From Linnemannia elongata (lineage: Eukaryota > Mortierellomycota > Mortierellomycetes > Mortierellales > Mortierellaceae): a DNA stretch of 64,000 nucleotides. The notes below the pieces were generated by a model. It saw nothing but the letters and a program-made list of their open reading frames with translations. It did not search any database and was not told where the DNA came from. Position 1 is the stretch's first letter, and every line of letters begins with the position of its first letter. The position numbers and the translations under genes were made by a program. The stretch lies in the NCBI GenBank assembly GCA_036320915.1, contig JAXBDG010000008.1:310001-374000 (forward strand), given 5' to 3'. Below, in pieces: positions 9,834-15,388 of this stretch.

Positions 9834-12800
9834 CTAGTTCTCGAGACTGGTCATTTGGAAGGTACGGGCCTGCTTGCTACGACTGCGACTTGTACCCGAC
9901 CGACCAGTATTGGTAGTGCCAGTAGTTGAAGAAGCCGACGACGATGAGGATGATGAAGAAGACTTCCTGCTAGAACGAGACTTGTGGATTTGCACAATTG
10001 CAGGGACAGGGTCGCTGACCGCCGATAACGTAGCAGTCGACAGCAACGTGGGTGACACCACTGAAGAAGACGAAGACGAAGATACAACAGTGTGATTAAG
10101 ACCAAGTCCAGGGATCTGCGAGAACTGAGAGCCCTCATTCATGGGCGACTGGGCGGTCATCGATGGCGTAAACACAATCCTGGGAGATGGCAGATTTGCT
10201 GTAGTGGAGGACGAAGAGGCTGCTCTTTGTGTAGTAGAACTACTGGTCTTGACGGCCACCTCGCCATTGTCTTGGAAGCTGTACTCGGACACGTTACTGA
10301 TACTGTTCCTGTGACGAGTAGATTGACCGCCTGCTGCTCCTGAAGGAGAGCTTGAAGAGTTGGCACGTCTTAATGGAGGTGGCGGTGCATAGCTCTGTGC
10401 ACTTAGTCCTGAACGAGTTCCGGTCTTGGAATGAACAGTCGTCGTAGAGATAGGCACCTCCATCGACGATCTTCTTTGAGACTGCAGCCCCGCCGAATGC
10501 TTCTCACGAGTCTCAACACCAAGAGTTGACGCATCATCCGACATTGTCGAAGGCGCCAACCCACTGGCTGCATCGAGGCTAGAGTTGTCAGCCATGGGAG
10601 CCATGGGAGTCATTGCAGGCCGATCCGGATTGACAGGCGCGCTTGGTGTGGCTGGCGAAGAGTTGGACCGGCCAATGCTACCAAAGCAAACCGAAGCCGA
10701 ACCTCTCATGGTAGCATTAGCGCTACTAGAGGTCGTGGGCATAGATGGTGGTGCCTGATGGAATACGCAGTTTCCTGCTGTCTGCTTTGATGTAGTAGCT
10801 GGTGGTCTGTAAGCCTCCAGGCGACGCAACCGCAAGCGGTAAAGAATATCATCCAGACAATGCTCAATGCTGCAATGGTTCTTGATGATCGAGATTTCTA
10901 TTGCAGAAGTTGATGCAGAGCGCAGAAGAGTTTTAGTTAGGCTTTACAGTCCCCTTGCAATCCTTAGTTGCAACCTCAAACACAAATGAGCAAAACGATG
11001 CTCGTGCGACTTACTTGGCCAGGTTGCACGCTCGCCCTTGAGCGTGGCGTTGACAAGGAACTCGACCGTTGGGTTGCTCACAATGTTCAGGTAATCGTCC
11101 ACTCCAAGGTCAGGCACAATAGTGATATCGCCATAGTACCGCTGTGCCATAATCGCCTGAACCTTCTGCATTAGTCCTGGCATAACTCCCAATATCGACA
11201 ACTAGATTATTTGAGCAGCGGAAACGGGACGTCGTTAGTATCCTGTTTAGTCACGACTGTACTTGTGATTGTTCAAAAAGTCTACATTGTTGAGTAACTC
11301 ATCAGCGTGACGCACCTGGTTCATGCGATGCTGGAGCTCAGATCTCGCTTGATACAGTATCCAGCCAAGGACGCGATTTGTTGGAGATCGTGCCAGAGAG
11401 TTGTGCAAGAATGGCACGATGTAAGGGTTGACCTGGCAGACGATGAAATGGTTCACGTTGAACAGCTCCGAAAGCTTGTTCATAGGGAGATCACTAAAAT
11501 GTACATAATGAGGAAATATTAGTCCCTTGTGGCGCATTGTTTCCGCGAAAGAAAGGGCTACGAGGCTCCAACTTACTTGTCAACAGATCCGTCGATCCAG
11601 TGGTAGCCTAAGAGAGGGGTGAGAAAAGGAAGAGGCTTGGTCAAGAAGCTGCTCGACTCTCAAGCGCCATATCAATATGTAACAGCGAAAATGGAAGGGG
11701 ACTTACGGGAGGGGTTCCACTGAACCTCGTCTCCGTTCTTGTCCTTGGCCATAAGTGGCGCCGAGTTGTAAATGAATGGAGCGGCGGATGATGTCGCACT
11801 AAAACAAGAGATGTTCGTTAGTTATTTGTAGCAGAGTAGAGTGGATGCATGTGCTTGAAAATGGTTTAACTTGGGGATATCACTTACACCGCTGACCAGA
11901 TGAGGACGTTGGGGGCAGTCAGGTAATTCAAAAGTCGAGGCATCTCAAACGTAGCAGAGGTACTGACGGTGATGTTGAGAATTCTGCGCGTGCGGTTGTA
12001 TGCCTCCTGGAAGGTGACATTTCCGATGTTGTCCTTCAGTGCAGCCTTCAGCACTTGGGCGTCAAAAAGAGCACCTAAACAACCCAAAAGAAATACTCAA
12101 AGTTAGATTTTGTCAGCTTCATGCCCACATCGTTCAGAGAGTCCAAGATCAATCGCTCTTTTGCATACCATTCTTCAAAAAGTGAATGAGTCGTGCTAAG
12201 ACATCTCCTTTTTCCTCCACTGTGTGGAAGACGGTCTAATTTATTTAAAAGAAAGATAGGATGCCAATGGTTAGTGAACTGGAAAAAAAAAAAAAAAAAG
12301 GACCAAGCACCATTGCGCCTTTGACCGAGACTTACAAAATTAAACTTGTCAAACTGGAACATTTCGGAAATCTCCTCATCCGTGCGTGTGCAGAGTATGC
12401 CCGCAATGATCGATCCGCACGACGATCCCGAGATAATCCGTGGCAGCAGTTGGTTGTAGTACAACGTCTTGATCACTCCAATGTGCATCAAACCTAAGAG
12501 GGATAAGTACGCCACCAAAATAATAATTAGGATCTAGATTCGAAATCATCAACTGAACCAGTGACCAAAATCCACTCTTGACTTACCCATGGTTGCGCCA
12601 CCACTGAGAAGAAGGGCTGTACGACCAAACGCCTGGCGGGTATGTGTGAAAAACTCCAGTTTGGCTGCCATAGAAAAGTCGTCGCTCTCAGTGTCACAAA
12701 TCATGTTGAGCTGTCGAATAACCTCCGCATTGTACTCCTCGATCAGCCGCTTGGTACCGATAATAGTGTTTGCATACAACTAGAGCAAGGAGAAAAAGAA

Positions 12801-15388
12801 ACAATACGTTAGCTGGCTTGTCCCCGTCCCTATTTTGCACCTGAAGTAACATTGGCATGAAACAACGTATTTCGGCAGGGTTTTACCTGTGGCCGACCGA
12901 CATTGCCGAGGTTACGCGAGAGGGAGGTTCGAAGTAGATAGATCATCAATCCGAGATCACCAGACTCCCTGGCCGCACTCAGTTGTGAGAGACGCTCCTG
13001 CAACATTTCATAGTCGTAATGGGGTGATCTTGGGTCGTTCTTCCACTTGTCCTTACCCTGGAGTCGATCGAGGACGGCGGCTGCCTCTGCCCATTGCTCG
13101 TAGTTGGTTGCTGCGCTGAGAAGATGAGTGTAGTATGCCTTGGGGTCCCTTGAGGCGAGCAAGGACTCATAGATTTTCTGTAATTAAGGTTCACAAGGAA
13201 AATATATTAGGTGATGGTGATGACACAACATGGTGAGGGTGACATGTGGGGATGTGTGAGAGCAATTAAATCATGAGCGTCCTCGCCGAGGACGGCGGTC
13301 GACTCGCTGATTGGGAGCGTGCTGGCCGCGCGGGCCAGGTTCTCGGTGATGGGCGCGGCGTTGGCCTTCAGGCTGCTGGTGATCGCCATGCCGCTATGGC
13401 GGTCCCTGTTGGTCGTGGAGATCTGGTGGAGACCACCGCCTGTCACGTCTACGAAAACACGGCCGCCTAGAACTCGTAGGCCTCCACCTCGGCGAGGTAC
13501 CGGGCCCGCCGTTCCTCGTCGTCCTCCAGGAAGGAGGCGAGGAAGGAGTTGCGGGCCAGTTTGCGCATGCAGTCTTCGGTCAAGCCGAGTGTCTTGCGCA
13601 CGGCCTCGAAGTTGTCGTCGGCGTAACCGCCAAAGTACGCTGGATCGTCGGAATTGACGGTGCAGAGTAGGCCGGCGTCCAGCATCGCGGGGAGCGGGTA
13701 ATCGGCGAGCGTGTCGACCACGCGCAGGCGGACGTTGGAGAGGGGACACAGGGTCAACGGGATGCACTCGCGCACCAACCGCTCCACCAGCGCCGTGTCC
13801 TCCATGCATCTAAGCCCGTGGTCGACGCGCTCGACTCCGAGCACGTCTAGGGCCTCGACGACGTACTCTGGTGGCCCCTCCTCGCCTACGTGCGCGACGC
13901 GGTGCAGGCCCAGCGCGGCGGCGGCGTCGTACACTTCGCGAAACTTCGCCGGTGGGTGCCCGACCTCAGCCGAGTCGAGGCCGACGCCAGTGATCCGGTC
14001 CAGGTACGGCTTCGCGGCCTCCAGCGTCTTCAGGGCAGATCCGGCGGACTCGTCGCGCAAGAAGCAAAGGATGAGCCTGGTCGAGATGCCGTGGTTGCGC
14101 TCACTGCTCCCCAGCGCCCGCCACAGCCCCTCGATGACTGTGCCCATGTCGACACCCCGCGCGATGTGCGCCTGCGGGTCGAAGAAGATCTCTGCGTGCC
14201 GCACGCCTTGCGCGGCGGCGCGGGCGAGGTAGGCGTCGGCGAGGTCCTCGAAGTCCCGTTCGGTACGCAGGACAGCCATGAGCTCGTAGTACAGGTTCAG
14301 GAAGGACTGGAGGTCCTCGAAGTCGTACGCCTTGCGCAGCTCGTCCACGTCGACGTACGGAAGCTCAACTCCGTTGCGGGCGGCCAGGTCGAAGGCAAGC
14401 TCCGGCTCCAGGGTGCCTTCGATGTGAAGGTGCAGTTCTGCTTTAGGGATGGGCATCGCAGCATTGTACCGGTGTTTTACCGGCGTTTCGCAACCGGGAC
14501 CCGAAGCAGGTCGTGCGCCACCGTCAGCTCGCCCTCGAAGCCGGCCGCCCGGCCCTGCCAGAAACGATGGGGATTGAGGCAGAGAGACAGAGGGAGAGAG
14601 AATGATCGATGTGCATGATGTGTACAGGAAGATCAGTTGTTAATGCTGGTTTCAATCATTACCTTGGACCAATGCTTGCCGACCGCATAGGCGACAGAGG
14701 TGGCAGAGGAGGTCACTGTCTGGATGATGCCCGTTAGTCCGGTCTGGCTGTCCTGCGTTTTATCTTTATGTGCATCCTCCTCCTCGTATTCTTCTTCGTG
14801 CCAGCCCTCGTTAGAGTCGAAGGAGTATGAATGTCGACTGTAGTAGGGTCGCGCCTTTGGGGTCGAAGCAATTGGCGTTTGAAGGGTATCATAGTTGTTG
14901 TTGCTATTGTTGTGGATGCTCTCCAGGCGAGAGTGCAGCTGATCAGAGAGATCGTTCAGCTGTTTCTGTTTCGCATTTCGAGATCTAGATGAAGAAGGCG
15001 CACCTTTTTCGGCTTTGGGCGTAACCAAGGAGGCTGAAAGATGTCCATGGCCATGACCATGACCATTGGCATGGAGTCCAAAGGTCAACGCGGGGTCGCT
15101 GTCGCTGTCTCCTTCGAGAAGCAGCTCCTTGGTCTCTACCAATGTATCATCCTCATCCACGCCTCCCTCGAATTCCTCTTCCTCCTCCTCGTCTTCGTCC
15201 AATGCTCCATCGAAATAGCCTGCTTCCTCGTCTTCTTCGTCATAGTCCTCTGCAACGTCAAACTCGTAGAGACTGGGTGGTCCGGTGCTGCAGTGGTCGG
15301 AGTAAGGGAAGGGAAGGTTGGTTTCAGAGATGCACAGGTCAAAGTCCTCGTCGATAATAGGAGCGACCTGTGGCGACGAACGACTCAT
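9834..15388 (-). CDS. Patatin-like triacylglycerol lipase (DUF3336; yeast Tgl3/4/5 type)
   Basis: This is a predicted lipid-droplet lipase/phospholipase. The eleven exons are 15388-14663, 13177-12887, 12779-12587, 12493-12336, 12235-12169, 12074-11888, 11798-11707, 11607-11577, 11493-11316, 11201-11015 and 10897-9834, giving 1057 aa. Residues 1-242 are acidic and low-complexity, with a short hydrophobic end. About 243-400 is the DUF3336 region (WKNDPRSPHYDYE, ESGDLGLMIYLLRTSL, RNLGNVGRPQ). The patatin core follows: LLLSGGATMG oxyanion loop, GSSCG nucleophile elbow (Ser428) and DGSVDNDLP (Asp577) as the dyad. The last 330 residues are Ser-rich and disordered. The family hydrolyses triacylglycerol and can also act as a lysophospholipid acyltransferase. 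Intron 1 is 1485 bp because it contains foreign GC-rich DNA; without it the intron would be about 180 bp. The gene is divergent from pacC. Confidence 0.92.
13268..13463. other. Partial open frame beyond the deaminase, cut at the segment edge
   Basis: Both strands are open and GC3-rich here. The minus-strand reading continues the deaminase direction as a hydrophilic Ala/Ser/Thr-rich protein. The plus-strand reading gives a hydrophobic, membrane-like peptide. I cannot tell which strand is coding. Either way the frame is interrupted at the fungal boundary near 13268. Confidence 0.35.
13467..14456 (-). CDS. Bacterial-type adenine/adenosine deaminase (329 aa, intronless)
   Basis: This is a zinc-dependent purine deaminase of the ADA/Aah1 amidohydrolase family, producing hypoxanthine from adenine (or inosine from adenosine) and ammonia. 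All family motifs are present. HLHIEGT at residues 9-15 gives the HxH metal pair. HVGEEG carries the conserved His and catalytic Glu. DHG follows, then the CPLSN turn and NSDDPAYFGG with the metal/catalytic Asp pair. NSDDPAYFGGY rather than NTDDP favours adenine over adenosine as substrate; this is inference. The full frame has no introns, strongly GC-biased third positions and bacterial length. It is a typical actinobacterial gene, unlike its fungal surroundings. It sits in the sense orientation inside the lipase intron. Expression in the fungus is doubtful, because no fungal promoter or polyadenylation signal is evident. Confidence 0.93.
   Translation of the reverse strand: MPIPKAELHLHIEGTLEPELAFDLAARNGVELPYVDVDELRKAYDFEDLQSFLNLYYELMAVLRTERDFEDLADAYLARAAAQGVRHAEIFFDPQAHIARGVDMGTVIEGLWRALGSSERNHGISTRLILCFLRDESAGSALKTLEAAKPYLDRITGVGLDSAEVGHPPAKFREVYDAAAALGLHRVAHVGEEGPPEYVVEALDVLGVERVDHGLRCMEDTALVERLVRECIPLTLCPLSNVRLRVVDTLADYPLPAMLDAGLLCTVNSDDPAYFGGYADDNFEAVRKTLGLTEDCMRKLARNSFLASFLEDDEERRARYLAEVEAYEF
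14463..14468 (-). promoter_or_regulatory. Bacterial -10-like element of the deaminase gene (leaderless start)
   Basis: On the minus strand TACAAT ends 6 nt before the ATG. Actinobacterial leaderless genes characteristically have a TANNNT -10 element about 7 nt upstream of the start codon, so transcription would begin at or next to the A of ATG. No Shine-Dalgarno sequence is seen, which fits. This is a short motif and could be chance. Confidence 0.4.
14477..14570 (-). pseudogene. C-terminal tail of an upstream bacterial gene
   Basis: A minus-strand frame rich in GC-ending codons ends in TAA at 14479-14477, 20 bp before the deaminase ATG. The last residues read GELTVAHDLLRVPVAKRR. It is cut off at the segment boundary near 14570. 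Its protein family is not recognised. The tail-to-head spacing is what an intact bacterial gene pair would show. Confidence 0.55.

Follow-up and report, generated by a model that had tools for sequence, protein, structure and literature searches.

A Streptomyces-type deaminase gene within the first intron of a fungal lipase gene, probably an old and domesticated interdomain transfer

The window analysed here, a 64-kb stretch within a 2.7-Mb contig, carries on its minus strand a fungal gene with DUF3336 and patatin domains, identified by profile search and called the lipase gene below. Its exon 1 (14663..15388, minus strand) is an open reading frame of 242 codons with low complexity, and exon 2 (12889..13177, minus strand) holds the start of DUF3336 (PF11815, 89 bits in the ORF 12830-13162). 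The end of DUF3336 and the start of the patatin domain were matched (PF11815, PF01734) in two further reading frames with later exons (12075..12779, minus strand, limits approximate). Intron 1 (13178..14662, minus strand), predicted from the splice sites in the sequence and from domain continuity, spans 1485 bases, of which 103 + 99 = 202 remain without the insert that it houses. The last codon of exon 1, AAG at 14663, is followed by GTAATG as the predicted donor, the intron ends with ...TTAATTACAG at 13178, exon 2 opens with KIYESLL at 13177, and the predicted junction is in phase 0. The intron flanks carrying donor and acceptor are single copy. Paralogues of the lipase gene on C27 and C9 are both matched by exon 2. 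For the final 60 residues encoded by exon 1, no convincing match was found within the 3.4-kb loci of these paralogues, which therefore do not serve for an empty-site comparison.

The insert (13277..14559, no strand assigned) consists of Streptomyces-type DNA. Its limits are the edges of blastn homology to 80 loci kept from a genome search, all of them from Streptomyces; the E-value against Streptomyces genomes is 0, and chance similarity is no issue. Two 500-base intervals lie inside the segment (13501-14500), with GC contents of 0.67 and 0.65, against 0.35 to 0.58 in the remaining 126 intervals of the 64-kb stretch. Three parts follow one another in the Streptomyces order: the terminal piece of an MBL-hydrolase gene, a deaminase gene complete with its 329 codons, and the tail of an MFS gene in convergent orientation. 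The same order occurs in S. panaciradicis, whose 3.5-kb MBL-ada-MFS region found the insert as its sole genomic match, and in L024, where the deaminase gene has the same neighbours on both sides; in the insert, both neighbours are truncated. The upstream scrap (14457..14559, minus strand), recognised from the gene order in L024 and by alignment, comprises the last ~25 codons and the stop of the MBL-fold hydrolase gene with a spacer of ~20 bases. The downstream scrap (13277..13466, plus strand) is the C-terminal end of the MFS transporter gene, decayed as judged from its substitutions; its alignment contains one 24-base and one 1-base gap, and homology reaches 13277 in L024, L023, L020 and L029 among the matches listed. 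The insert is single copy, with one match in its own 51-Mb genome, and at assembly level both junctions lie within one intron, 1.28 kb apart. Judged by sequence, the donor is of Streptomyces type. The first-pass annotation had described a GC-rich segment at 13268..14575 with an intact 329-codon intronless deaminase gene of actinobacterial character, located in the first intron of a fungal lipase gene whose splice donor and acceptor were preserved in phase 0. This description holds, with blastn edges 9 and 16 bases inside those limits, and is refined by the Streptomyces type of the donor and by the remnants of the two flanking bacterial genes. No evidence of a target-site duplication was found at the junctions, where the best candidate agrees at 6 of 8 bases (CATCGTTT/CATGATTT). 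The search for a plasmid or phage vehicle matched seven plasmid records and one phage record, all at 60-80% identity and none reaching 80% query coverage (six of the seven plasmid rows being listed), and a single 34-base exact probe matched nothing in viral contigs.

The deaminase gene (13467..14456, minus strand) is intact and encodes a member of the ADA/AAH1 family: its product matches PF00962 with 295 bits (cut-off 27) over positions 1-322 of the 330 of the profile, and NF006850, named adenosine deaminase in NCBIfam, with 506 bits. HxH, HxGE and SDDP are the catalytic motifs of ADA/AAH1 deaminases, and alignment with 3rys, 3ou8 and 1a4l reveals HLH, HVGEE and SDDP in the insert enzyme. All motifs named in the earlier annotation (HxH, HxGE, CPLSN and SDDP) are present, HxGE reading HVGE and not HAGE. 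This replacement, A190V, lies within a catalytic motif; together with H253Y, elsewhere in the protein, it affects positions invariant in 101 Streptomyces sequences. Changes at otherwise invariant positions thus number two in the insert deaminase, against an average of 0.32 per Streptomyces row, with L081 and L080 having 5 and 3. The closest solved structures are 3rys (410 bits), which we take to be an Arthrobacter enzyme, and 3ou8/3pan (359 bits), presumably Pseudomonas PA0148; mouse ADA follows with 130 bits. The motifs HxHxEGTL(E/Q)PE, CPLSN and SDDPAYFGGY are common to these AAH1-type structures and the insert enzyme, which differs from them in having HVGEE instead of HAGEE, whereas mouse ADA reads HVHLDG at the place of HxHxEG. 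The PDB label of 3rys and 3ou8/3pan is adenosine deaminase; Goble and colleagues reportedly found in 2011 that these enzymes act on adenine, not adenosine. With these substrates as reference, the deaminase is nearer in sequence to AAH1-like adenine deaminases than to adenosine deaminases, and it most likely deaminates adenine, giving hypoxanthine as AAH1 does, rather than adenosine. Profile searches found no second ADA/AAH1-type gene in the fungal genome, the other PF00962 and TIGR01430 matches being AMP deaminase exons on C12 and C14, and the insert gene is the only ADA/AAH1-type deaminase found there.

The Streptomyces comparison set comprised 101 sequences, with 392 genomes drawn out of a larger group; a second draw of the genus gave the same genomes except for the centre. 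The nearest sequence, from S. guryensis (L006), has 86% nucleotide identity to the insert gene, and the protein is up to 89% identical to its Streptomyces homologues, at equal length. In a tree built solely from the insert gene and its Streptomyces homologues, the insert gene stands beside L099, L006 and L096 on a long tip branch (0.125), the nearest nodes having 58-61% support. GC content at fourfold sites is 85.0% in the insert deaminase, compared with a minimum of 90.7% and a median of 96.5% in the 101 Streptomyces sequences, and with 54% and 52% in two host exons. Bases absent from all 101 number 28 in the insert gene, and all are GC-to-AT. A codon model favoured an AT-biased segment on the insert branch (2dlnL 75-92 over six settings), amounting to about 0.14 neutral substitutions per site; on the 101 Streptomyces control tips the same model gave a maximum of 29.9 and a median of 2.4, and an AT segment exceeding 7.8 in 16 of the 101. 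The insert is ameliorated, an AT-biased phase having evolved on its branch, and this phase was presumably spent within the present intron. Since the best identity is 86%, fourfold GC is low and an AT-biased phase is present, the insert is not raw contamination, and it did not arrive very recently; the interdomain insertion proposed by the first-pass annotation stands, its very recent date is not supported. Sampling may have missed the actual donor lineage, and part of the divergence would therefore be bacterial.

The deaminase gene and the MFS scrap differ in what they retained during this phase. The ada alignment is gap-free against 108 of 111 loci and contains no stop in 987 bases. Among its 28 private bases 21 are synonymous, against 12.4-12.7 expected when 28 changes are randomly placed on three living relatives (P 0.0003-0.0017). 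In the AT phase omega is 0.18-0.24, omega=1 being worse by 18-28, and since this value of about 0.2 exceeds the 0.07-0.08 of Streptomyces, constraint on the deaminase is relaxed. This test does not single out life in a fungus: AT segments occur in Streptomyces controls too, and in the strongest of these (L041, L069 and L057) omega=1 is likewise rejected, by 14-18. At ada positions 1+2, 17 AT-ward changes were counted versus 37 expected (P=2e-4), whereas the MFS scrap has 9 versus 8.96 expected if neutral. Similarly, rare changes are 36 synonymous and 16 nonsynonymous in ada (16/52) versus 2 and 10 in the MFS scrap (10/12; P=0.002). Decay of the scrap was judged by these substitutions because its frameshift alone proves nothing: the position of the MFS stop varies within Streptomyces itself, between -2 and +101 codons with L024 as reference, across 75 matching locus rows that include duplicates of one genome, and the insert has +55. 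In the AT phase, the deaminase is under constraint and the neighbouring MFS scrap is not.

This pattern of mutations suggests that the insert has long been resident and that its gene is still maintained. We consider it probable that the insert is an old, domesticated interdomain transfer whose deaminase was kept working, probably as an adenine deaminase. In another scenario the insertion is just as old and the gene was never functional in the fungus, its constraint being inherited from an unsampled, lower-GC Streptomyces-like donor and its reading frame open by luck. Indeed, when the 28 private changes are placed neutrally, about half of the placements yield no stop codon, A190V and H253Y fall at invariant positions, the translation start context is poor, smaller AT segments with low omega occur in some Streptomyces controls, and donor sampling is incomplete. 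This scenario is nevertheless unlikely, since none of the 101 Streptomyces sequences reaches the composition or the AT-phase signal of the insert, omega=1 is rejected, and the MFS scrap, on the same molecule, took up changes at the neutral rate, most of them nonsynonymous, which is unexpected under a constrained bacterial donor. It is also improbable that a once-useful gene, held by selection for a while after transfer, lost this protection recently and is now decaying: the alignment without gaps or stops and the synonymous share of private changes speak against it, and individual Streptomyces rows reach or exceed its number of changes at otherwise invariant positions, although the raised omega, the valine next to the catalytic His and the count of two such changes would fit. 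Misjoining of Streptomyces DNA into the fungal contig, the chimera that the first-pass annotation had offered as its other option, is very hard to credit despite the abrupt GC step and the abrupt limits of homology, given two junctions so close together in a 2.7-Mb contig, single-copy intron flanks with donor and acceptor, no close sampled Streptomyces, a composition outside that of the 101 homologues, an MFS scrap decayed beside an intact deaminase, and the failure of two probes to find further Streptomyces DNA in the assembly (the WhiB family, and 3.5 kb of Streptomyces DNA that matched the insert only).

Under the preferred reading of an old transfer with a maintained gene, a piece of Streptomyces chromosome 1.28 kb long, with the MBL-hydrolase end, all of ada and the MFS end, would have entered the fungal nuclear genome and been joined into lipase intron 1, probably through ordinary break repair. 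The insertion would have done little harm because, with its splice sites kept, the intron can still be removed. The whole piece would since then have drifted towards fungal base composition, with purifying selection acting on the deaminase gene while the transporter scrap decayed, and for this reason the deaminase is most likely expressed, as a nested gene on the same strand. It would supply the sole ADA/AAH1-type deaminase found in the genome, and it may benefit the fungus.

The closest known counterpart is the Streptomyces gene itself (NF006850 / PRK09358.1-6) in its MBL-ada-MFS neighbourhood; the insert copy differs in its place in a fungal nuclear intron, its truncated neighbours, its partial amelioration and its two replacements. 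Nested intronic genes of eukaryotes are complete genes within an intron of another gene, and the present one differs in being bacterial in origin with the donor fragment still recognisable. For most bacterial genes claimed in fungi, to our knowledge, arrival lies so far back that the transferred piece of DNA is no longer readable. The present insert still bears a legible scar of its arrival, in donor genus, both neighbour genes and break points, and the MFS scrap provides a built-in neutral yardstick beside a still-constrained gene. Because scar and yardstick are both present, the steps of domestication (intron integration, composition drift and gain of expression) are directly testable in one locus, which also suggests introns as safe landing sites for foreign genes. 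For early-diverging fungi, the main text of PMC11291939 reports 829 xenologs in 44 fungi, with bacterial genes often intronless and Actinobacteria among the named donors. The insert resembles these transfers in its intronless gene and actinobacterial donor and is set apart by its location, within the intron of a gene already resident in the fungus, and by the remnants of its two bacterial neighbours, which can still be read; the words 'deaminase' and 'streptomyces' have 0 occurrences in the main text of that paper. A literature search on adenine deaminase, horizontal gene transfer and fungi gave no such case by title or abstract start among the matches listed, and one on bacterial genes inserted within an intron by horizontal transfer found none.

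A bolder version, which we hold only tentatively, is that the fungus has as its only AAH1-type (adenine) deaminase an intron-resident bacterial gene that never left its landing intron, with the bacterial scrap still serving as leader or promoter and expression tied to the lipase gene. If true, a random fragment of bacterial DNA turned into a working nested eukaryotic gene where it landed. A leader or promoter could reside in the ~200 bases of intron together with the bacterial upstream scrap. The scrap has 2 rare AT-ward changes against 7.5 expected if neutral (P=0.02), a low number that may be read as constraint, yet is a misfit to uniform neutral drift; its private bases are three, including two C>G, and it does not follow the AT drift. 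The upstream scrap could possibly have been kept as leader or promoter. Both A190V and an out-of-frame ATG in good context (ACAATG; 14462..14464, minus strand), located 8 bases upstream of the deaminase start and opening a 55-codon reading frame that overlaps it, argue for caution on function. Fusion of lipase exon 1 to the deaminase by alternative splicing was discarded, as none of three acceptor AGs (14640-14457) is in frame and the most plausible of them, before 14554, leads to a stop after 25 residues. A scan with a bacterial promoter model, applied here to a fungal host, gave one weak match on the minus strand.

On its minus strand the window carries a fungal gene encoding DUF3336 and patatin domains, as identified by domain profile search, with exon 1 of this lipase at 15388-14663 and exon 2 starting at 13177. 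The intervening intron is 1485 bases long, begins with GTAATG and ends with TTAATTACAG; without the insert it measures 202 bases, and each of the flanking intron halves has one match in the genome. The Streptomyces-type DNA lies inside this intron at 13277-14559, limits set by blastn homology, with one edge at 14559 and the other at 13277, where the MFS end aligns (45 of 123 matches listed). It carries one entire gene, the deaminase (ORF 14456-13467), between the ends of two others, an MBL-fold hydrolase gene and a convergent MFS gene, in the same order and orientation as in S. panaciradicis. The host lipase has paralogues, namely two more DUF3336 genes on other contigs (C27:2373744 and C9:1085331).

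All of the 80 loci from the genome scan, the best 80 of at least 573 confirmed relatives, bear Streptomyces in their title. For the phylogeny, three gapped loci out of 111 were dropped and seven duplicates were removed from the 108 extracted, leaving 101 distinct sequences, all from Streptomyces and without an outgroup from another genus. In the tree the window's deaminase has S. guryensis and two further loci (L099 and L096) as neighbours. The nodes closest to it are weakly supported (58-61%), and its own tip branch measures 0.125. Its best nucleotide identity to Streptomyces is 86.2%; of 392 Streptomyces-group genomes sampled evenly out of a larger set, 377 match, the top identity is again 86% among the matches listed, and no close donor was found.

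The window, positions 310001-374000 of a 2.74-Mb contig, belongs to a 51.1-Mb genome in 32 contigs, where neither the actinobacterial WhiB family (0 matches) nor a 3.5-kb Streptomyces probe spanning all three genes, whose sole match is the insert, revealed a contaminant; the deaminase likewise has one match in this genome. The chitin synthase family gives 25 matches, four of them above 800 bits, which fits a fungus, although the same search also finds matches in 4 of 14 control genomes. One chitin synthase match (C6:1159055-1160302) contains four in-frame stops, three TGA and one TAG, and is possibly a pseudogene or a reading through introns.

The base composition of the insert argues against contamination. 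All 28 private bases of the deaminase, absent from the 101 Streptomyces, are GC-to-AT changes (30/30 in an earlier count against 77 Streptomyces, three of 80 loci being dropped), while private bases across the 101 Streptomyces are mixed (175/271). Its fourfold-site GC is 85.0% versus a Streptomyces minimum of 90.7% and median of 96.5%; host exons have 57/106 and 25/48. In a codon likelihood model, splitting the window's branch into a bacterial and an AT-biased part improved the fit by a 2dlnL of 92.1 with 14 relatives and of 75.2-89.9 under five more settings (8 to 20 relatives, equilibrium GC 35-55%). All these values are approximate, as optimiser iterations were limited throughout and, for the five settings and the controls, background branch lengths were fixed in the second step. 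The 101 Streptomyces tips, handled like the setting of 8 relatives and 45%, gave a median of 2.4 and a maximum of 29.9, with 16 above 7.8. The length of the AT-biased part corresponds to some 0.43 neutral substitutions per codon (range 0.37-0.51 under the five further settings), or about 0.14 per site, against a largest control value of 0.28. Such a phase on the window's branch disfavours both contamination and the "very recent" insertion that the first-pass annotation offered as one alternative.

The estimate of omega for the AT-biased part is 0.18-0.24, and fixing it at 1 lowers the fit by a 2dlnL of 18-28. Rejection of omega = 1 is also seen in the Streptomyces controls with the strongest signal (L041, 18.3; L069, 17.4; L057, 14.1), so this test alone is no proof of selection in the fungus. 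Of the 28 private changes, 21 are synonymous, compared with 12-13 under random placement on three living relatives (P 0.0003-0.0017). With neutral AT drift calibrated on deaminase third positions, the insert supplies its own control: the MFS scrap (13277-13466, plus strand) has 9 AT-ward changes in 117 sites versus 8.96 expected (61 Streptomyces rows), and deaminase positions 1 and 2 have 17 versus 37 expected (P 0.0002). Counting rare changes, those present in at most 5% of Streptomyces, the deaminase has 36/52 synonymous and the MFS scrap 2/12 (P 0.002 by Fisher's test), MFS codons being read in the S. panaciradicis frame. In the Streptomyces rows (37 ungapped rows of 62 matches), 37/70 are synonymous in the same MFS stretch (P 0.028 versus the window) and 689/1395 in ada; when gapped rows are included, 9/10 rare changes of the scrap are nonsynonymous. 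The 103 upstream bases (14457-14559, minus strand) show 2 AT-ward changes versus 7.5 expected (P 0.02) and three private bases, two of them C>G. The low count hints that this stretch may be retained as a leader or promoter, but it also fits poorly with uniform drift.

As a sign of decay, the loss of a single base from the MFS scrap is uninformative, because the MFS end is highly variable in Streptomyces. Just downstream of ada in the Streptomyces loci (L002-L121, e.g. L024:4987), the reading frame of the convergent MFS gene often seems to run on into ada, on the opposite strand, before it stops. With S. panaciradicis as reference, the position of this stop varies between -2 and +101 codons in 75 locus rows, which would give tail-to-tail overlaps of differing length between the two genes.

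The database name of the protein is adenosine deaminase. Among solved structures it is nearest to 3rys (410 bits) and to the 3ou8/3pan/3pao/3pbm group (359 bits), both scoring far above mouse ADA (130 bits). The former share HxHxEG and SDDPAYFGGY with it, whereas mouse ADA has HVHLDG and NTDDPLIF at these motifs. These two reference enzymes are Arthrobacter AAur1117 and Pseudomonas PA0148, which reportedly deaminate adenine but not adenosine, and we therefore expect the deaminase of the insert to be an adenine deaminase by analogy. No second ADA/AAH1-type gene was found by exon-by-exon search of the genome with PF00962 and TIGR01430, which matched otherwise only AMP deaminase exons of two genes (C12:3347736-3348044 and C14:409922-410227); this search might overlook a heavily broken gene, yet it detected these distant relatives.

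The deaminase is likely functional in the fungus, as predicted from its sequence. Against this stand private changes at invariant sites, an upstream ATG and an omega above that of bacteria (0.07-0.08). Of its eight private residues, two fall where all 101 Streptomyces are invariant: A190V, which lies within the HxGE motif, and H253Y. Streptomyces rows have on average 1.8 private residues (maximum 15), and 0.3 (maximum 5) at sites that do not otherwise vary. An out-of-frame ATG in good context lies 8 bases upstream of the start codon, and none of the acceptor AGs examined upstream of that start would join lipase exon 1 to the deaminase in frame.

The insert was probably joined into the intron by break repair, because its ends look random, both neighbour genes being cut, with no clear target-site duplication at the junctions and no vehicle among plasmid and phage records and viral contigs. 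Nested genes are known. A limited search gave no precedent, among the literature matches listed, for a readable bacterial fragment as a nested intronic gene. Bacterial genes in fungi are already known, PMC11291939 giving 829 xenologs, not all of them bacterial, in 44 early-diverging fungi. At the left junction (14554-14590), a pyrimidine tract followed by GGCAG before 14554 forms a strong-looking splice acceptor, which, if used, would extend lipase exon 1 by 25 codons of MBL origin followed by a stop.
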